DNA of 61,896 nucleotides. Origin: Microscillaceae bacterium (GTDB lineage Bacteria > Bacteroidota > Bacteroidia > Cytophagales > Microscillaceae). The notes beneath the pieces are model-generated. The model was not told where the DNA came from. It ran no database searches and saw only the letters and a list, made by a program, of their open reading frames with translations. Positions 1 to 59,300 of the stretch are shown one piece after another (the stretch's first letter is position 1; each line of letters starts with the position of its first letter). The translations under genes were made by a program, and so were the position numbers. The stretch is taken from the NCBI GenBank assembly GCA_012031215.1, contig JAAUUB010000005.1:1-61896 (forward strand), read 5' to 3'.

Positions 1-117
1 TTCTTCGCTTTTAGCGATGGGGATGTCCAGATATTTCTCGCTCAATGACAAAAAGAATTGCCCGATGTTTTCCCGAAGGATTTTATCATAGGCTTTATTT
101 TCTGTTTTGTCGGCCAT
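1..117 (-). CDS. PD-(D/E)XK nuclease family (Rpn/transposase-like) protein, N-terminal part, cut by window edge
   Basis: The first 39 codons of a leftward gene; the ATG lies at 117-115 and the rest is outside the window. All 117 bases are identical to the start of the complete gene at 5542-6381, so this is a second copy. Only the N-terminal helix is visible; the nuclease core is off the edge, so the family is assigned from the complete copy. Whether this copy is full length cannot be seen. Confidence 0.75.
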   Translation of the reverse strand, partial: MADKTENKAYDKILRENIGQFFLSLSEKYLDIPIAKSEE

Positions 118-306
118 CTTGTTTTTTTATGGAATAGAAGGCAAGCAGGGATGGGATTTACCCCCTCATCTTCATCTTAGCATTTTTACCCACACTGCTC
201 GCTGAAAGCAAAGCTTAGGAAGCACTTCAATCCAAAGATATAATAAAATGCTGAAAATAAAGCCCAAGCAATCGCCAAAATATGGCTTCGTGATGCAAAA
301 GCCTAT
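1..306 (+). repeat. Direct repeat, left copy (bounds the island)
   Basis: Bases 1-306 match 6265-6563 in the same orientation. The coding part (1-117) is identical; the following ~190 bases differ at a handful of positions and by a few short indels. Similarity stops near 309 (left) and 6567 (right). The repeat probably continues to the left of the window. The unit between repeat starts is 6264 bp. Confidence 0.9.
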
Positions 307-309
307 GGC

Positions 310-745
310 CAGCGCGAGGCGCATCTGAGCCGTTTGCGCTTGTTGATTGGGCTTAACGACACAATTTAAAATCAGTTGGGGGAAGGCAAACAGCAGGAAA
401 TCTTTTAAAAACCTATCAATGCCCTTGCATTCAAGCCTGCTTAGTAAAGACAAGCTCGACCGAACCCTCGTTAACCATATGCAAGGAGCTAACCAACGCG
501 ATGACATCCTTTGGATAGGAATTAAGCTTTGAAGAAAAAGACCGCGGCTACCTTGCAATTTTACTATCAACTGGAAAATGCATAAAGACACAACAGGATG
601 CTTGATGAAAAATACGATTAAATCTGTCGCAATCCTACCATCTACTCAGTTCTTCGGAACTTCCCCCGGAAATCCCAAAGCATAGAGAAAAGCGCAAATT
701 GTCATTTGCCATTTTTCTGCTTATATTAGCATAAAAAATTAGTGT
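310..745. other. No intact gene; possible short coding remnant on the minus strand
   Basis: Between the repeat and the first antitoxin I see no convincing gene. On the minus strand, 544-431 reads as 37 codons ending in TGA, with a protein-like composition (it contains SYPKDVIALVSSLHM) but no start codon, so it may be the tail of a decayed gene. A 139-codon minus-strand open frame across 172-591 runs through the non-coding part of the repeat and has no recognisable content. Confidence 0.3.
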
Positions 746-994
746 ATGGAATACAAACTCCAAATCCCGCTGAGCTTTCAACAGTTAACTAACTTGGTAT
801 TGCAACTGCCTACATCTGCGCAAAAACGATTGGTAGCGGCCATAGAAAGCCAACAATCACCGCCGCCCAAAATACAGATGAAAACCGTCGCGCAAATCAA
901 AGATACAAACTACCGCTATCCTCATAAACAACCTCAAAAATTAGTAGGCTTGTGGGAAAATGAACCCGAAATGGATCAGTTTTTTTTACAATAG
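746..994 (+). CDS. Putative antitoxin of a PIN-domain toxin-antitoxin pair
   Basis: Encodes 82 aa. It sits 13 bp upstream of a PIN-domain toxin in the same direction, the usual antitoxin-toxin order. The start MEYKLQIPLS followed by a helix-rich stretch (QQLTNLVLQLPTSAQKRLVAAI) resembles small VapB-like antitoxins of Bacteroidota and cyanobacteria. The C-terminal half is basic then acidic and ends LWENEPEMDQFFLQ, plausibly the toxin-binding tail. The antitoxin role rests mainly on position and size; I do not recognise a named DNA-binding fold. It probably binds the toxin and represses its own operon. Confidence 0.65.
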   Translation: MEYKLQIPLSFQQLTNLVLQLPTSAQKRLVAAIESQQSPPPKIQMKTVAQIKDTNYRYPHKQPQKLVGLWENEPEMDQFFLQ

Positions 995-1007
995 GCCGCA
1001 TGAGGAG

Positions 1008-1475
1008 ATGAGATACGTTTTTGATACCAATGTCTTAGTGCATCAACTAAGAAATACCCCTACTTGGCAATTTATAGCGGCGACATATGAGCCCTTTGCT
1101 GAGGACGTAGAAACATACCTTAGTTTTGCCTCAGTAGCCGAGATTTTGTCTATGGCAGAACAAGCAAATTGGGGGAAATCAAAGCAAAATCAGCTTCTTG
1201 AAGCTATCAATGAGTTTGAAATTGTGGCAGTATCAGGGGACGTGGGCGATGCGCTTGTACAGGCTTATGTACAAATTGATAGTTTCAGTCAGGGAAAAAA
1301 CTCAAAACTCCCTCTGCCCATTGGCACATCAGCAAGGAATATGGGAAAAAATGATATTTGGGTGGCGGCCACAGCCTATGCTCTGGATGCAAAACTCATG
1401 ACCACAGACAAAGATTTTTTGCATTTAGACCCTACATTGCTGGAAGTTGTGTTTGTGCACATTCAACCGCATTAA
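1008..1475 (+). CDS. PIN-domain toxin, VapC-like ribonuclease
   Basis: Encodes 155 aa from the ATG at 1008, directly preceded by GAGGAG; the longer frame from 960 would overlap the antitoxin. PIN signatures are in order: an N-terminal FDTNVLVH carrying the first Asp, a mid-protein SVAEIL carrying the Glu, NDIWVAATA with the second Asp, and a C-terminal TTDKDFLHLD. These acidic residues coordinate the metal in PIN nucleases, which cleave RNA (often tRNA or rRNA) when the antitoxin is lost. Together with the gene upstream it forms a type II toxin-antitoxin operon beside a restriction-modification gene. The target RNA cannot be told from sequence. Confidence 0.9.
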   Translation: MRYVFDTNVLVHQLRNTPTWQFIAATYEPFAEDVETYLSFASVAEILSMAEQANWGKSKQNQLLEAINEFEIVAVSGDVGDALVQAYVQIDSFSQGKNSKLPLPIGTSARNMGKNDIWVAATAYALDAKLMTTDKDFLHLDPTLLEVVFVHIQPH

Positions 1476-1981
1476 ACCCATTTGTAAAACCGGGAAGCTT
1501 TGCCTTACTAATCTTGTGCTTCTCGTTCTTGCCACGCCTCTTCTCCATACCTAATCAAAAGCGGTTTGTCCGTGGGTGCGAAGTGCCTCCCCAAGCCTGG
1601 AAGCTTGCCCGAGGGGAAATCCTGAGGTGCCGAGAGCAAAAAAACCAGTGAATAATTTTTGTTTTTTATAAAAAAGGCTATTTTAGCAAAGGTTTTTTAA
1701 GAATTTAGCCAAGTGTCCGCTATGAACAAGCGAATTCAACTTTGTTCCATTACTCTACCCAGTATGCCTTGTGTGGTGTCGCTGGCTAAGGGGTAGGATA
1801 AAACATTTTCCTATAAAGCTGGGGAAGGCATCCAAGTTATTCAGGTCTTCCAGACCAAAGGCACTCCTGCTTATTTTATTGCAACAAGTCTATTAAAAGC
1901 CCTTTCGTTACTTCAAATATAAAAAGAATGATGGGGTATAAACAAAAGATATTGCTTCAACCTTATAAATCTTAGGCAGAT
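1476..1981. other. Intergenic, no gene seen
   Basis: About 500 bases without a supported gene. It contains a low-complexity AT stretch around 1650-1710 and, at 1800-1858, a segment with counterparts on the other side of the restriction-modification gene (separate entry). Short open frames here lack family signatures and starts. Confidence 0.6.
1800..1858 (+). repeat. Flanking repeat motif, left of the restriction-modification gene
   Basis: AAAACATTTTCCT at 1800-1812 and TCCAGACCAA at 1849-1858 recur in the same order and orientation at 4392-4404 and 4424-4433, on the far side of the restriction-modification gene. The left copy includes the small inverted repeat GGTCT-tcc-AGACC (1844-1856). 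The spacing between the two blocks differs (36 versus 19 bases), so this is a degenerate pair. Confidence 0.5.
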
Positions 1982-4252
1982 ATGTATGATGAAACCAACT
2001 TTCTGAAAGCCCTCTCTCAATCCTTTGTGAATTATTTGAAGTATGGTGCAAGAAGTACAGAGAAGCTCAAGCCTATCCATCTATTTTTGGCGAATACGTT
2101 ACAAGATATTTTTGGACAGGATTACCAAATACATTATTTAGGCGAAAACTCAAAAGAGCTTACCATAGCAGGTAAATACTACCCAAAAGATATTGATATT
2201 GCCGTTACCCATAATAAAAAACCTATTTTCTGTTTGGGCTTGAAGTTCGTAACATCAAATTATAAACAAAATGCCAACAATTATTTTGAAGGAATGATGG
2301 GCGAAACTGCTAATATTCAACGTCAAAACATGCCTTATGCTCAAGTAATTGTTTTACGTTACAAAACACCTTACTATAAAAAGGAGTTAAATGAGCAAAA
2401 AGATAAAACACCATCAAAAATTGAAATCATCAATCAAAAAGACCTTGGCAAATATGTGAATTTGGTATTTGATACGCAACAAGCCCACTGTCCTTTTGCT
2501 ATCGGTATCTTATTGGTAGAAATCAACGAAGCTACAAGTGAGGTCAAAAAAATTGAGCCAAATTCCGTTTTAGATAGTAAATTTGCAGAAGTCTTGGAAA
2601 AAAAGTTTCTGTTTCCAATCTTTTCAAGAGGTGATAACTTTTTCAAAATTTTACAAAACTCAATTGTAATGGCTTCACTAACAAAGGCTTATGATAATCA
2701 AAAGCTATTAGGGCAAGTATATACCCCTCGGTTTGTGGTGGAAAAAATCTTGGCTGATATTGGTTTTGATAATCCAAGTATTTTAGGAAAAACGATTTTA
2801 GACCCGTCTTGTGGAGATGGACGTTTTTTGGTTGTAGTAGCCGAAAAAATTATTGAACTTTCACCCAAAGAAAGCTTAAAAGAAAATTTAGAAAAAATTT
2901 ATGGTTGGGATATTGATGAGGAAGCTATTGCTTATTGCCTTGAAAATCTGAATGAATTGATAAAATCACTCGACATAAAAATAAATTGGAATATTAAAGT
3001 TTGTAATTCATTGAAGAAAATCATTGAGTTTGATACACAGAAATTTGATTTCATTGTAGGCAATCCACCCTACATTCGGATACAACACTTGGAAGAAACA
3101 GAACGAACTTTTGTGCAGAAATTCTATAGATTTTGCAAGAGTGGTTCTACGGATACTTATATTGCTTTTTATGAATTATGTAACTTTTTGTTGGCTAAAA
3201 ACGGTATTTGTGGGCTAATTACACCTAATACGTTTTTTTACAGTGAAACTGCAAAATTTATGCGTGCTTATTTTACTATTAAGCAAAGCATTATAAAAAT
3301 TACTAATTATGCGGATATTCAGCTATTTGAAAATGCCACTACTTACAGTGCCATAACTATCTTTGGCAAACAAGCTAATAAGGCTTTTGTATTTGAGCAA
3401 GCCAAGGGTCCAACAGAATTTGAAACAAGAGTTATCAGTTTTTACGAAATCAAAGAACAAAAAATTTGGCAATTAAGCATCAACCCAAACATAGAGAAAG
3501 AAGGCGTAAAATTGAAGGAAATTTGTGATATTCATGTAGGTATTACTACGCTTTGCGACAAAGCCTATATTTTTTCAGTACAAGATATTGAGAATGAACC
3601 TGATTTTGTATTGGCAAAAACGCATTTCAAAGGTTTAGTGAAATTGGAAAAAGCGGTATTGAAGCCGATTATCAAAGCTTCAAAACTTAAAAGCAGTACC
3701 GACAAGATTAATCAATACGTTTTATTTCCTTACCAAAAGGTGAGTGGAAGACACAAAATTATGCCCGAAGAAACCCTAAAAAATACATTCCCTTTGACTT
3801 ACAATTATCTTTTAGGCATAAAAGACGAGTTAGATAAACGAGATAACGGGAAGCTTAATACTGTGGCGTGGTATGCTTTTGGGAGAAGTCAGGGTTTGGA
3901 TACAAGTTTTGGCAAAAAGATTTTATTTTCTCCTATGAACAATAAACCTAATTTTGTTTTGATAGAAAATGAAGAGTGTACTTTTTATTCTGGTTATTGT
4001 ATTAAGTATCAGGGGGATTATGAGTTTTTACTAGAACAATTAAATTCACAAAGATTGGCTGATTTTATTTCCGTTTCAAGCCGTGATTTTCGTGGCGGCT
4101 GGAAAGCCTACAACAAAAAAGCCTTGGAAGATTTTACGATAACAAGGCCTCCTAACGAAAAAATGAGTCTAAAAAAAGCAATAAATTCGTCTAATACTAG
4201 CTTGGTGGAAAGTAGGGCGAGAGTACTAACTTTGGACTTTGGTATTTTCTAA
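1982..4252 (+). CDS. Single-chain restriction-modification enzyme (type IIG-like) with N6-adenine methyltransferase domain
   Basis: Encodes 756 aa. The methyltransferase core is clear: GQVYTPRFVVEKIL (motif X region, near residue 245), DPSCGDGRFL (motif I, AdoMet binding, near 275) and NPPYIR (motif IV, catalytic, near 362), in the gamma-class order seen in M.TaqI and Eco57I-type enzymes. The C-terminal third resembles the TaqI-type target-recognition domain. The N-terminal ~200 residues contain DIDIAV followed by KPIFCLGLKFVTSNYKQN, a layout compatible with a PD-(D/E)XK nuclease in which the Glu of E-x-K is not obvious; this assignment is inferred. No separate endonuclease gene is adjacent, supporting a fused enzyme. 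The gene is visibly more AT-rich than the window average, which suggests horizontal transfer. A stand-alone methyltransferase is the alternative. Confidence 0.85.
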   Translation: MYDETNFLKALSQSFVNYLKYGARSTEKLKPIHLFLANTLQDIFGQDYQIHYLGENSKELTIAGKYYPKDIDIAVTHNKKPIFCLGLKFVTSNYKQNANNYFEGMMGETANIQRQNMPYAQVIVLRYKTPYYKKELNEQKDKTPSKIEIINQKDLGKYVNLVFDTQQAHCPFAIGILLVEINEATSEVKKIEPNSVLDSKFAEVLEKKFLFPIFSRGDNFFKILQNSIVMASLTKAYDNQKLLGQVYTPRFVVEKILADIGFDNPSILGKTILDPSCGDGRFLVVVAEKIIELSPKESLKENLEKIYGWDIDEEAIAYCLENLNELIKSLDIKINWNIKVCNSLKKIIEFDTQKFDFIVGNPPYIRIQHLEETERTFVQKFYRFCKSGSTDTYIAFYELCNFLLAKNGICGLITPNTFFYSETAKFMRAYFTIKQSIIKITNYADIQLFENATTYSAITIFGKQANKAFVFEQAKGPTEFETRVISFYEIKEQKIWQLSINPNIEKEGVKLKEICDIHVGITTLCDKAYIFSVQDIENEPDFVLAKTHFKGLVKLEKAVLKPIIKASKLKSSTDKINQYVLFPYQKVSGRHKIMPEETLKNTFPLTYNYLLGIKDELDKRDNGKLNTVAWYAFGRSQGLDTSFGKKILFSPMNNKPNFVLIENEECTFYSGYCIKYQGDYEFLLEQLNSQRLADFISVSSRDFRGGWKAYNKKALEDFTITRPPNEKMSLKKAINSSNTSLVESRARVLTLDFGIF

Positions 4253-4391
4253 GTACTTTTCTGCTTATGTGGAATACGATGTTGTTAAATAATTCCTCCT
4301 GCCGCAAGTCTGATTGAAGCGGGTACTTGAAGCATTTTCCGCTTTTTATTCATGCACTTACAGCAGTAAGGAGAGCCTGCATACCAGGTTA

Positions 4392-4433
4392 AAAACATTT
4401 TCCTCATTGGTCTGGATGGCATATCCAGACCAA
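4392..4433 (+). repeat. Flanking repeat motif, right of the restriction-modification gene, with 11-bp inverted repeat
   Basis: Right-hand counterpart of 1800-1858. It also holds a perfect 11-bp inverted repeat: TTGGTCTGGAT at 4407-4417 and ATCCAGACCAA at 4423-4433 around a 5-base loop. No T-run follows, so a transcription terminator is unlikely; a recombination or recognition site, or a hairpin left by a mobile element, fits better. Confidence 0.5.
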
Positions 4434-4513
4434 CGGGGATGCTCATAGGGTCGTAGATAGAACGCAGGCGGCGCCTAGTCTTAGCACAACCAGACCAGAC
4501 ACAAAGGGGAGAT

Positions 4514-4903
4514 TCACCATTTTTCTAATTTTAGTGTGTCGATATGCTCAAAATGTTTATCACGGCTTACCAAAATCAAATCATTTTCAAGAGCCAGAGA
4601 TGCTATCCAAATATCATTTTCAGGAATCTTTGTGCTTTTTTTTTTAAGAGCGGCTTTGATTTTTCCGTAAACATAAGCAGTTTGTGCATTGCAAGTGAGT
4701 ATATCAGTTTCTATTTCAAATTCTTTAAATTTCAAAATATTTTCTTGAATTCTTTGTGAATGATATGCCCCATAGTACATCTCTCCCAAAGCCATGGTAG
4801 GGATATAGATTTCTGCTGCATTTAGGATTTTATCTAAGATATTCTGTTCCTCCGCAAACAATGCAATAATAATATTTGTATCTAATAAATATCTACCACT
4901 CAT
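4514..4903 (-). CDS. PIN-domain toxin, VapC-like ribonuclease
   Basis: Encodes 129 aa from the ATG at 4903, starting MSGRYLLDTNIIIALF. This start overlaps the upstream antitoxin stop by 11 bases, typical of translationally coupled toxin-antitoxin pairs; the longer frame to 4933 would overlap more and lacks conserved residues. PIN residues visible: the N-terminal LDTN Asp, the Glu of MALGEMYYG, NDIWIASLA with the second Asp, and SRDKHFEHID. It is a different subfamily from the PIN toxin at 1008, so the two modules are probably independent rather than duplicates. Expected activity is metal-dependent RNA cleavage, blocked by the partner at 4893-5114. Confidence 0.92.
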   Translation of the reverse strand: MSGRYLLDTNIIIALFAEEQNILDKILNAAEIYIPTMALGEMYYGAYHSQRIQENILKFKEFEIETDILTCNAQTAYVYGKIKAALKKKSTKIPENDIWIASLALENDLILVSRDKHFEHIDTLKLEKW

Positions 4904-5114
4904 CTTCATCAATCTTTTTACAATCTTCATCAATGCTTTTTTGCATCAATTGTATATCACTTGATGGAATACTACCTGCGAATTTGAGTAAATTTTGCGG
5001 CTTCTTGGGTGCTGATGCCCTCCCAAGCATGGCTTCTAAAAAATCTACCAAACGCAATTTTTGCATTGTAGTAAGTTTTTGGAGCAAAGTGAGTATTTTA
5101 ATTTCCGTGTTCAT
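4893..5114 (-). CDS. Antitoxin of VapB/DUF2281-like type
   Basis: Encodes 73 aa from the ATG at 5114 (MNTEIKILTLLQKL). The frame stays open upstream to 5333, but that part looks like translated intergenic sequence. The N-terminal amphipathic helix and the acidic, tryptophan-ended tail (AGSIPSSDIQLMQKSI, then EDEW) match the layout of small antitoxins paired with PIN toxins, in which the tail plugs the toxin active site. Its last 11 bases overlap the toxin start. It probably autoregulates the pair. Confidence 0.85.
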   Translation of the reverse strand: MNTEIKILTLLQKLTTMQKLRLVDFLEAMLGRASAPKKPQNLLKFAGSIPSSDIQLMQKSIDEDCKKIDEDEW

Positions 5115-5541
5115 ATCTTCTGATATTATAAACAAACTTAGGGAACAACATTTATTTCGTAAACTTGAAGAACGGTTTTTCCTTAAAATCTTTTTCTTCG
5201 GGTTCTTAGCGCAATCATATACCCACTCTGGCGTAAGCATTAGTGAAGAGATGCTTGTGCCGCTCATTTCCGAAAGCATCCGCTTTCCGCCGTAGGCGAA
5301 GGGTCTTTGAAATGCCAAAATACCAAAAAACAAAACCTGCCTGATTTTATATCTCTCTCAAACACCACAGCATATCAAATCCTGCACCTTCGGTTAGAAG
5401 CGGACGCCTCTGGTAATTGATAGTCCAAGCACCGCTTCGCTCATGCTTGGATTAGGTGGGACGCGCTTGGCACTCCCCCCCGAACAGCTTTCAATTTTTG
5501 TTTTTTACCGCTGAGCGAGCGGAATAGCAGAGAGTGGATGA
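5115..5541. other. Intergenic, no gene seen
   Basis: Holds the promoter region of the leftward toxin-antitoxin pair and the 3' end region of the leftward PD-(D/E)XK gene. No recognisable gene, repeat or strong hairpin was seen. Confidence 0.5.
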
Positions 5542-6381
5542 TTAGCTGATTTCACCCGCCTTTACTTTTATGATAAAATCAAGGGATACTTCAAAAAGGT
5601 CGGCGATTTCTTCTGAGGTCAATTTACCTTGAGTGAGTGCTTTTTGGATACCTTGTATCTTGGTTTTTAATTCGCCAATTTGCTCTCCTTTTTGGATGCC
5701 GATTTGCTCTCCTTTTTGGTAGAGCGCGTCTTTTTCTATGTCATAGACCAAGGCCATATCTTGTAATTGTTTGGTGGTGAATGCTGTCAAATTCCGCAAA
5801 CGGGATAATACCAATAGCTGACGAATGTATTTTTGTAACGTCATCGCATCTTTGCTTAGTTCTTGCAATCGCTGGATTATTTTTGACAAAACTTCTTGGG
5901 CTTCTTCCTTTTTGAAATTACACAAGATGGCCAGCATAATCTCTTCGGGTATCTCCGATTCTAAAATGACTTGGTAATCCAGTTCGTGCAGACTTTTTAA
6001 CGCAAATCCTCGGAATACTTCTTCCTCCCTCAGTTGTGTCTGCATTTTGGAGGGGCTTGCCCCTAAGTAAATGACCAATTGCCGAACAGGCAGACCGTAT
6101 TTTTTGCGCAATATGCCAAAGTATTCCTGCATTCTGTAAATCATATCGCGTTCGTCCTTGGTCTGAAATTCCAGATGCAGGATGAATTTTTCGCCCGAAG
6201 GGCTGTGGATGATGCGCAAAAAATCGGCTTCTTTCTCGAGGGTGGTATAGAGTTGGTCTTTCAGTTCTTCGCTTTTAGCGATGGGGATGTCCAGATATTT
6301 CTCGCTCAATGACAAAAAGAATTGCCCGATGTTTTCCCGAAGGATTTTATCATAGGCTTTATTTTCTGTTTTGTCGGCCAT
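5542..6381 (-). CDS. PD-(D/E)XK nuclease family (Rpn/transposase-like) protein
   Basis: Encodes 279 aa. The segment ADFLRII ... EKFILHLEFQTKDE ... MQEYFGILRKKYGLPVRQLV near residues 50-105 matches the PD-(D/E)XK core of Rpn-type recombination-promoting nucleases and related putative transposases common in Bacteroidota and cyanobacteria; the Asp and the Glu-x-Gln are the likely catalytic positions. A helical middle is followed by a repeated QIGIQKGEQIGELK stretch and a C-terminal helix pair. The same start occurs at 117-1, so the gene lies in a long direct repeat. Rpn proteins have been linked to recombination and phage defence; here its copies bound an island of toxin-antitoxin and restriction genes. 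Confidence 0.8.
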   Translation of the reverse strand: MADKTENKAYDKILRENIGQFFLSLSEKYLDIPIAKSEELKDQLYTTLEKEADFLRIIHSPSGEKFILHLEFQTKDERDMIYRMQEYFGILRKKYGLPVRQLVIYLGASPSKMQTQLREEEVFRGFALKSLHELDYQVILESEIPEEIMLAILCNFKKEEAQEVLSKIIQRLQELSKDAMTLQKYIRQLLVLSRLRNLTAFTTKQLQDMALVYDIEKDALYQKGEQIGIQKGEQIGELKTKIQGIQKALTQGKLTSEEIADLFEVSLDFIIKVKAGEIS

Positions 6382-6563
6382 CTTGTTTTTTATGAGAAGG
6401 CAAGCAGGAATGGGATTTACCCCCTCATCTTCATCTTAGCATTTTTACCCACAATGCTCACTGAAAGCAAAGCTTAGAAAGCACTTCAATCCAAAGATAT
6501 AATAAAATGCTGAAAATAAAGCCCAAGCAATCGCCAAAATATGGCTTCGTGATGCAAAAGCCT
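6265..6563 (+). repeat. Direct repeat, right copy (bounds the island)
   Basis: Matches 1-306. It covers the first 117 bases of the PD-(D/E)XK gene plus ~180 bases of its upstream region; the conserved non-coding part includes CTGAAAATAAAGCCC and GGCTTCGTGATGC blocks. Conservation of non-coding sequence shows a recent duplication or gene conversion rather than selection on the protein alone. Confidence 0.9.
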
Positions 6564-6780
6564 GTGGTCTGAGGGATAGCACTGGTACTTAGTCTCTTTT
6601 AAGCGCAAGACCAGGAAACATCCCGATTAGCGGATTTCAAATAATTGGTCATCCTCTTTTATCGCTGCTGTACCAGGTAGCAAGGCATGAAAACGCCGCA
6701 CAAGCGGGGCCTTTTTTTGTAAAATCGCTTTTCTTGAGTCCGGGCCAGAGAATTGAGCAATTTTCGGATTTTATCCCGGA
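6564..6780. other. Intergenic, weak terminator-like hairpin
   Basis: Upstream region of the alkylation repair operon. A short GC hairpin (CCGC-acaa-GCGG, about 6698-6709) followed by a run of seven T around 6714-6720 could be a rightward terminator, but the stem is only 4-5 bp and no rightward gene ends before it. Nothing else is visible. Confidence 0.35.
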
Positions 6781-56300: not shown

Positions 56301-59300
56301 TTCCACGGCGGCACGCTCCAGCGGCCCAAAGAACACAGCTCCTTCAAAATAGGCATCAAACTCGAGTCGCAGTTGATTGCCTGAGGTGATGCTGCTAATG
56401 TCAATGGCCGGAGTGGCCAGTCGGTCAAAAGCGGCATTGTTGGTAGGCCCAGGTGCGTCGTCGTTCATCGCCACCATATTGCCACTGCCTACATCGGGTA
56501 TTTGCCAGAATGGGCTACTTAGAGAAGCGGCATCGCCATACAACCAGCCTACCCCATTGGTCGTAACCGCCCAGTTTTGGGTAAAAGGATTTGTATCAAA
56601 ATTGGTGGTGAAGGGAAAAGCCACGGGTACTTCATTGGTGATGGCATAGCCATTGAGTGCGTCATTGCCCGCATTGGCATCGCCCGCCAGGGTCGTAAAT
56701 GCGTTAATCGTGCTGGTGGGCCCGGAAAGATCCGCCGTTTGTGTAAAGGTATAATTGGCCACTCCAAAAGCAGGAATATTGCCCGTGAAGGTTTCGGTAA
56801 CGGTTGCGCCACCATTGGCCACATAAGATACATTGAAACCTGTGATGGCTTGAAAACCGAAGTTTTGGACACGCACCGTAATGGTTTCTGCTGTTCCCAG
56901 ACAGAAAGCACTATTTCCGGGTGCCACTACCGCAATCACACCAGCATCCAAGGGGGGAACTTCCCGAATATTGACATTGTCTATCGCGTATCCGGCCGCA
57001 AAGAAGCCATTATCATTGTAGCGGAAGGCAATCTGCACACACTGCCCCAGGTAAGGGCTAAGGTCTATTTGCTCATTGCGCCAGGCTGCCTGCGCCGTCA
57101 ATTGGCGCAATTGAATCCAGTTGGCACCGCCATCCACACTGATATCTACAAAGCCCGTTCCTCCGAAAGTCCCATTGAAAAAGGTATCGAAGCTCAGCCT
57201 TGCCTGATTGCCGGGCGTTACCAGCCCCAGGTCAACAGCAGGGGTGATGAGGCGTTCATTGTTTTTATTACAATTACAGGCATCGTCATTGGTGGCTATA
57301 ATCGTAGTGGAGTTCGTTGCCGGAATTTGCCAGAAAGCACTGCTAAGGGAAGCGGCAGTTCCAATCAGCCAGCCTCCATCGGTGGCCAGGGTTTGCTGGC
57401 TCCAGAGTGCCGGAAATACCCCAGCTTCAAAGTTTTGCACAAAAGGCAACGCTTCTCCGGCCAGATTTTCAATATTAACTACCCCCGAATTGTTGTTGGT
57501 GGCATTTCCATCCGCATTGCCATTGATAGTGGCTCCGGTAAAGGCTTCCAGGGTATTAATGGCCAGCGAAAGGTCAGCAGTCGGGGTAAAAGTATAATTG
57601 ACCGAAGAAAATGGGGGAATCGCATCCGGGAAAGTAACCGTTACGGGTGCACCACCATTGGCCACAAAGCTCACATTAAAGTTGAAAGCTGTATTAAAGC
57701 CAAAATTGGTGATTTCCACTGTTACCGGCACGTCATTGTCCAGGCAGAAGCCCGGTGAGCGAGGGCTTACAATGGCCGAAACGCCCACATCAAAGGGGAA
57801 AACTTCCTTGATCACGACATTGTCCACGGCATAACCTGCCGCGAAAAAACCATTGTCATCATAGCGGAAGGCGATTTGCACACAAGTCTGGCCTATATAA
57901 GGATTAAGGCTCACCCCTACCTGTCGCCAGCTTGTTACATTGGTCAGTTCCAGCAGTTGCGTCCAGGTTTGTCCCCCGTTTGTGCTCACTTCTACAAAGC
58001 CATCGCCTCCGAATGCCCCGTCAAGTAGGCATCAAATTCCAAGCGTACTCCATCCCCGGGCGCAAAGCCGCTCAGGTCAAAAATAGGCGTGATAAGCCTT
58101 TCCTGGTCTTTATTACAGTTACAGGCATCATCGTTGGTAGCCACAATATTGGTGCTGTTTGTGCCCGGAATCGTCCAGAATGCACTGCTGAGCGAACCCG
58201 CCGTGCCCGGCAGCCAGCCCCCGTCGGTAGCTTGGGTTTCCTGGCTCCAGCTTGCGGGAAGCCCTGCTTCAAAGTCCTCCTCGTAAGGAAAGGTATTGAT
58301 GGCGGTGCCTACCGTTACATTGAGCGGGGCCAGCGTATTATTGGTCTCATTGCCATCTATCGGCACAATACTGGCCGCAATGGTATAAGTATTGGGTGCC
58401 ACGTTGGCGGGTGTGGCAAAGGTGTAAAGTGTTACATCAAAAGGGGCCAGCGTTTGGGCCACAGTTTCGGTAACAATTGCCCCCGGTGTCTGTGTATAAG
58501 AAACATCAAAATTACTTTGGTTGCTGGTGCCGATATTGCCAATCAGTACCGATACTGCCCCACTACAGGGATTGAAACCAATGCTGCCCAGGGCCAGGTC
58601 GTTGGTAAAAGGCTGGAAAACAAACACATCGCTAATTTGCTCCCCCGCCGGAAAAGCACCAATCAAGGTTGCCGTGCCCGTGGTTTTATTTACGCTCCAA
58701 AGCTCAGCGGCAAAGCTACCCGAATTGAAAGCGGCATGATAAATGACCGAGCCATCGGCGGCAAAATTCCCCCCCTGACCAAAATTGGCATCAAAAGGCA
58801 ATGGATTGAGCGCCGTGGCGGTAAAAGTAGTTGGATTGACCCGATACCAGGTATCGGTTACGTTTCCTTGCAGATAAATATCGCCATTGGTGGGGTCCAC
58901 GGCCAGCGAAACCCCTACGGTTTCAGCCGTAACAGTGCCCAGCAAAGTCGCCACCCCCGTCGTTACGTTCACTTCGTAGATTTGACTGTTGATGGTTGGG
59001 TTGGTGGTAAGCATCAACATCCGCTTGTTGAAATCATCCCAGGATAAATCGGTGGGCGTTTGTCCAGCGGCTACGCCCGTCCCGCCTACCAATTCGGCAA
59101 TAGCTGTAACTTGGTTAAGCTTGTACCAAAATTGGGTATTGGCCGCATCGCAAAGATACCAGTTGCCGGTTCCGTCTGCATCTAAGCCGCCCGGAAACTG
59201 CGCCGCGCCCGAATTACCCACTACAGCTTCAAAGACCCCAGGATTGCTCAGGTCAAAGCGTACAATGTCGCCAACGCCATTTACACCAAAGGCGGTTTGT

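Follow-up and report, generated by a model that had tools for sequence, protein, structure and literature searches.

Rpn-like nuclease genes in direct orientation on either side of a putative small defence cluster in a Microscillaceae genome

Direct repeats at the left end of the contig

The stretch of DNA analysed here (the window, 61,896 nucleotides) is the entire contig JAAUUB010000005.1 (C250, or G000:C250, in our numbering) of the Microscillaceae assembly GCA_012031215.1, and its first base is the first base of the contig. At its left end, two copies of an Rpn-like nuclease gene, termed A and B, lie in the same orientation on either side of a restriction-modification (RM) gene and two pairs of PIN-domain toxins with their probable antitoxins. 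Both copies are accompanied upstream by a dispersed repeat, U, and another dispersed repeat, D, lies downstream of copy A. The repeats and the Rpn-like genes are arranged as follows, in window coordinates.

1-308, plus strand: left direct repeat (96.8% identity to 6265-6567)
6265-6567, plus strand: right direct repeat (96.8% identity to 1-308)
1-117, minus strand: first 39 codons (5' end) of copy B of the Rpn-like gene, cut by the contig end (100% identical to the start of copy A; exact 127-nt match)
5542-6381, minus strand: copy A of the Rpn-like nuclease gene, complete, 279 aa (conserved residues; structure model; tblastn to an annotated Rpn protein)
5542-5757, minus strand: candidate internal antitoxin frame (RpnS-like), 71 aa, from Met209 of copy A (Met kept in 51/66 homologues; stand-alone tails at 17/78 loci)
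5457-5541, minus strand: 3' flank common to three Rpn copies (A, C53 and the left end of C188), with the same outer boundary (sequence comparison)
198-361, plus strand: U of copy B, REPIN-like, left arm missing (profile match, E 6.5e-35; alignment; full copies have folds and inverted arms)
6457-6576, plus strand: U of copy A, both arms incomplete (profile match, E 1.4e-23)
5222-5460, plus strand: D, dispersed, near-palindromic, REPIN-like (profile match, E 1.7e-61, other strand matched too; fold of about -79 kcal/mol)

The preliminary description of this DNA reported direct repeats of about 300 bp, each holding the identical first 117 bases of a PD-(D/E)XK gene, and this is confirmed by the alignment of 1-308 with 6265-6567 (96.8% identity over 308 columns, E 5.8e-144). 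Bases 1-127 equal 6265-6391 exactly, a stretch that covers the initial 117 coding bases of the open reading frame (ORF) 5542-6381 on the minus strand. Beyond base 127, at 128-308, the copies differ at five mismatched positions and by two small gaps, one of 1 base and one of 4 bases. Therefore, the left copy is a distinct sequence rather than the right copy read out twice, and the suspicion that it is an assembly duplication artefact can be set aside.

The length of the exact match has a technical explanation. A de Bruijn assembler with k = 127 leaves exact overlaps of 127 bases where contigs end. Two further Rpn-bearing contigs of this assembly (306 contigs, 3.1% estimated contamination), C106 and C249, both break off within the 5' part of another Rpn-like gene, with exactly 127 terminal bases in common. 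Most likely, 127 nt is the assembler k-mer and the left edge of the window is an assembly break, implying that the left Rpn gene is cut off, not short. Since the assembler sets this length, the 127-bp identity between the two Rpn starts is a lower bound. The left repeat had been described as continuing beyond the window, and the gene is indeed cut at the edge, but that edge is the end of the contig and not a mere limit of the window. The contig C53 was considered as the left neighbour, as it ends in an rpn 3' end in a fitting orientation; its exact match to copy A extends to only 99 nt, leaving the linkage of C53 to C250 unproved. The genes of C53 were also sought beside ada in G018 as a way of closing the left gap, and were not found there.

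A divergent Rpn-like nuclease and its tail

In E. coli RpnA, the residues D11, D63, E82, Q84 and R94 have been mutated and are known to matter (PMC5350276). Copy A keeps all five of them in the same order, as D11, D53, E71-x-Q73 and R83, with a spacing of 18/2/10 versus 19/2/10 in RpnA. Across the 66 Rpn-like homologues, D11, D53 and R83 are invariant, whereas E71 is present in 65 and Q73 in 63. In addition, tblastn links copy A to a protein annotated as an Rpn family nuclease (29%, E 3e-7). On these residues and this homology, copy A is assigned as a divergent relative among the Rpn-type PD-(D/E)XK nucleases, in agreement with the earlier assignment of the gene.

The AlphaFold model of copy A has a mean pLDDT of 90.1. 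For residues 1-117 of the model, the best structural matches are EndoMS and other PD-(D/E)XK nucleases, but with Z values of at most 6.9, and a Foldseek search with the model returned nothing at 0.001. This likeness is supportive of the predicted fold, albeit not decisive. The C-terminal tail resembles helix-turn-helix folds (TrpR, Z 6.8 over 47 residues), short helical matches at such Z being common. No relatives of the Rpn-like protein were found in the viral contigs and phage genomes searched, and the plasmid search yielded relatives only in Acaryochloris.

Published Rpn genes encode a toxic nuclease (RpnL) whose C-terminal tail, which is also made alone (RpnS), blocks the nuclease; separate tail genes can follow the main rpn gene, as with rpnE/ypaA and rpnC, and Rpn proteins are able to defend against phage (PMC10327210). 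By analogy with this layout, copy A is probably a toxin-antitoxin gene, with an RpnL-like nuclease and an RpnS-like tail, directed against phage. Its tail contains a short direct repeat at 5674-5719, and translation from Met209 would give the candidate antitoxin frame listed above. The extra tail copies, seen at 17 of the 78 related loci, mostly lie directly after the Rpn-like gene, and such duplicated tails in the relatives are candidate stand-alone antitoxins. Isolated Rpn-like tails occur in this genome too, on C188, C75 and C196. In G007 and G008, at L143-L180, and at L190, L191, L196, L206, L210 and L216, many Rpn-like genes precede one or two duplicated C-terminal tails.

The count of Rpn-like loci in this genome is eleven. 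Six of these are no more than 150 bp away from a contig end, for which the chance is about 2e-8. This excess suggests that the family was recently duplicated, the near-identical copies being inseparable for the assembler. The homologues are also multi-copy in other Cytophagales and Saprospirales genomes.

The boundaries of the copies were compared as well. The sequence common to the C106/C249 pair begins some 22 bp ahead of the start codon, and the DNA further upstream is unrelated (right ends, L043 and L044); copies A and B diverge within U. Defined mobile ends for rpn were thus considered and rejected: one 3' boundary recurs in three copies, but the 5' boundaries differ between the two pairs. 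The differing 5' boundaries agree with the published absence of defined ends.

Dispersed repeats U and D

Conserved non-coding sequence upstream of the gene had been described in both direct repeats. It is present in both, but largely consists of the dispersed palindromic element U. The U profile gives 16 matches in this genome (both strands counted), with about nine well-matched places, and 34 in G006, while the D profile gives 10 in this genome (both strands counted). In full-length U copies, the ends are long and inverted, and the predicted fold extends from one end to the other. The D copy in the window abuts the 3' flank of Rpn copy A.

The sole Y1 transposase of this genome is of the RAYT/TnpA_REP type (PF01797; C133:130-663, L121) and lies 94 bp from a D copy. 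Its motifs NHVH, WQ and YIHxNP fit the Bacteroidetes subclass 2.6, whose RAYT genes are described as lying next to atypical secondary structures that recur elsewhere in the genome (PMC6006769). G006 carries a RAYT gene beside U (C47:7350-7900, L287), and RAYT remnants adjoin both U (L305 1640-1816) and D (L292 2042-2260). Since U and D are palindromic, dispersed and RAYT-adjacent, and since the RAYT motifs fit subclass 2.6, they are best interpreted as REPIN-like elements of a type already known, with mobilisation by RAYT as a prediction. RAYT-type Y1 genes and remnants beside U and D were seen in two genera. An integron attC site was also considered for U, whose GCTTAAC end resembles RYYYAAC, and was rejected because no integron integrase scored over the cut-off. 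An Rfam search of the window gave no match.

The divergence of A and B can be followed to individual bases. After CAAAAGCCTnTGG, copy B goes on like the U of C298, and copy A follows the U of C279 over some ten bases. The simplest reading of these few bases is that recombination or gene conversion may have occurred via the shared repeat.

U and D lie at most 1.3 kb apart at four loci of this genome, versus 0.03 expected, a pattern that was noticed after the fact. The content between them is Rpn copy A in the window, a VapBC pair with a frameshifted VapC (C228:7386-8033, L108), an Imm50 immunity gene (C103:5701-5994, L106) and two unknown ORFs (C187:2729-3498, L120). One conceivable meaning, which we consider improbable, is that the paired RAYT-associated palindromes frame interchangeable single toxin, immunity or nuclease genes and act as capture or exchange points for defence cargo. 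Alternatively, U and D could merely both accumulate in the same tolerant intergenic sites. Frequent pairing of U with D around toxin or immunity genes was not found described for REPIN/RAYT in the literature. Another U copy, on C147, lies ahead of a gene that resembles ATPases and has weak PDC-S01 matches.

A stricter form of this idea takes U and D as the two flanks of a RAYT-related cargo element, in which the transposase has been replaced by toxin, immunity or nuclease cargo, Rpn copy A included. The close spacing at the four loci, the kinds of genes enclosed there, the RAYT remnants at U and D and the D copy next to the sole RAYT are all consistent with such an element. However, order and orientation agree only in part, C103 and C187 deviating, and strict nesting of U, cargo and D as one element was rejected for this reason. 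Moreover, both U and D are palindromes in their own right and may be mobile individually; in G006, most U copies have ordinary genes as neighbours, and the four loci were found after looking. We therefore regard a RAYT-related cargo element as a rather unlikely account of the locus; it is partly compatible with the explanation that we prefer below.

The genes between the Rpn copies and their interpretation

Between the two Rpn-like genes lie the following ORFs.

746-994, plus strand: probable antitoxin, small partner of the first PIN toxin (ORF overlaps the toxin start; weak VapB15 match, E 0.01)
960-1475, plus strand: PIN-domain (VapC-type) toxin (PF01850, E 1.5e-8, over cut-off)
1982-4252, plus strand: fused RM gene, probable restriction endonuclease (REase) part (~209 residues) and N6-adenine methylase from an internal Met at ~2668 (Eco57I/N6_Mtase; PADLOC MTase_II, 464 bits; split homologues)
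4514-4933, minus strand: PIN-domain toxin, tRNA(fMet)-endonuclease VapC-like (PF01850, E 3.9e-17; NF047863, 93 bits, below the cut-off of 140)
4893-5207, minus strand: probable antitoxin, small partner of the second PIN toxin (ORF directly upstream, overlaps the toxin; no family match)

The AT-rich RM gene and the two PIN pairs of the preliminary description are thus present between the repeats, except that the RM ORF turns out to be an in-frame fusion of two genes. In G017, G008 and G014, the counterpart of the first 209 residues of this ORF is a gene of its own (about 230 aa), and the counterpart of the remainder is a separate methylase. The split homologues lie at L124 8922-11524, L126 8782-11530 and L123 3540-5824, and in G008 a further small gene stands between the probable REase gene and the methylase. 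The upstream partner of ~230 aa matches no family, and we infer its REase function. The GC content of the RM ORF is 33.0%, versus 48.7 +/- 2.5% in 2-kb windows of the rest, and the RM gene and one PIN pair are of foreign base composition. The PIN domains are clear, the second toxin having been searched in its shorter-start form (4514-4903), whereas the partner genes of both toxins show no significant family match. Elsewhere in the window, at 56945-58275, an internal repeat of about 490 bp with 68% identity lies in large minus-strand ORFs with repeated modules.

It had been proposed that recombination between the repeats could excise or amplify a unit of about 6.26 kb, and that relatives carrying the interior genes without the repeats would speak against it. 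Among the 56 relatives compared, all from outside the source genus, none carries the block arrangement. RM homologues are present in G017 (82-86% protein identity), G036 and G009, all of which lack an Rpn homologue, and stand beside purU in G017 and G036; the interior is therefore found without the repeats in part, that is, for the RM genes. This implies that, between relatives at such a distance, the 6.26-kb block is not passed on in one piece. As a demonstrated mobile or amplifiable unit the 6.26 kb does not hold, whereas a small defence cluster between two Rpn-type genes does.

Taken together, A and B are probably direct-orientation members of a multi-copy, recently duplicated Rpn-type family that flank a small defence cluster. 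Each copy would be a toxic DNA nuclease (RpnL) that carries its antitoxin (RpnS) in the C-terminal tail of the same gene and acts against phage. The common 5' coding end and upstream sequence may have arisen when one copy was duplicated from, or gene-converted by, the other, with the shared stretch running into the REPIN-like U and the homology ending inside it. The AT-rich RM fusion and the two PIN toxin-antitoxin pairs were probably acquired separately and would thereby have formed the small cluster.

Several points weigh against this interpretation. Copy A matches neither the Pfam (transposase_31/PDDEXK) nor the NCBIfam Rpn models even at E 10, and none of 23 homologues matches an Rpn model of Pfam at 0.01. 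The putative antitoxins next to the PIN genes are hardly recognisable as such. Furthermore, the relatives compared represent other genera, and a recent block duplication or array may still be compatible with the data.

Such an array, or a circle, would make the 6.26 kb a real amplifiable or excisable unit that recombines through the Rpn copies and is stabilised by the RM and toxin-antitoxin genes. The direct homology of at least 300 bp speaks for this scenario, the contig starts at the very 127-mer that recurs at 6265-6391, and tandem duplications of rpn regions are known (PMC10327210). Within copy A, there is no exact 127-nt match to the end of any other contig of the assembly, which is the pattern expected from a graph that loops back on itself. 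Nevertheless, the RM homologues elsewhere lack rpn, the copies differ beyond the 127-mer, and the absent left flank may just have escaped binning or have been too short to retain, so that we hold an amplifiable unit to be unlikely. Even less probable is a strain mixture or misassembly, by which the contig would join strain variants and the two Rpn starts would be alleles of one locus. The fragmentation and estimated contamination of the assembly, together with a break that falls in a multi-copy gene, could be taken in its favor, but the contig continues without a break from 128 past 6391, and the sequences outside U are wholly different (309 onward versus 6577 onward). At least one molecule should therefore hold both Rpn copies, unless the join is wrong.

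With a pair of Rpn-type genes around a small defence cluster as the preferred reading, a Bacteroidota protein family missed by the current Pfam and NCBIfam models is now placed, as a predicted member, in the Rpn toxin-antitoxin defence group. Its genes break assemblies, evidently through recent duplication, and the non-coding half of the repeat finds an explanation as a REPIN-like element. That REPIN-like elements frame defence genes is a testable lead.

Like Rpn (YhgA-like, COG5464/PF04754; E. coli RpnA-RpnE; PMC5350276, PMC10327210), the present family has the active-site residues D, D, E-x-Q and R at corresponding distances, a C-terminal tail with short repeats and stand-alone tail copies, and a multi-copy, patchy distribution with defence genes as company; it differs in being a subgroup centred on Bacteroidota, beyond the reach of the family models, with a predicted activity. 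U and D share with the REPIN/RAYT (TnpA_REP) systems of Bacteroidetes subclass 2.6 (PMC6006769; PMC3116915) the dispersed intergenic palindromes beside a transposase gene, with one Y1 transposase in the present genome that carries the NHVH/WQ/YIHxNP motifs. However, at about 200 bp for U and about 240 bp for D, the two elements exceed the typical REPIN length. The two PIN toxins, each with a small overlapping upstream gene, resemble VapBC type II toxin-antitoxin systems, but with poorly recognised partners and toxins under the curated NCBIfam cut-offs. Finally, the RM gene agrees with type II RM systems with an Eco57I/N6-adenine methylase (PADLOC MTase_II) in its methylase family and in the fixed upstream partner gene of its relatives, whereas here that partner, a presumed restriction enzyme outside known families, is fused in frame to the methylase.

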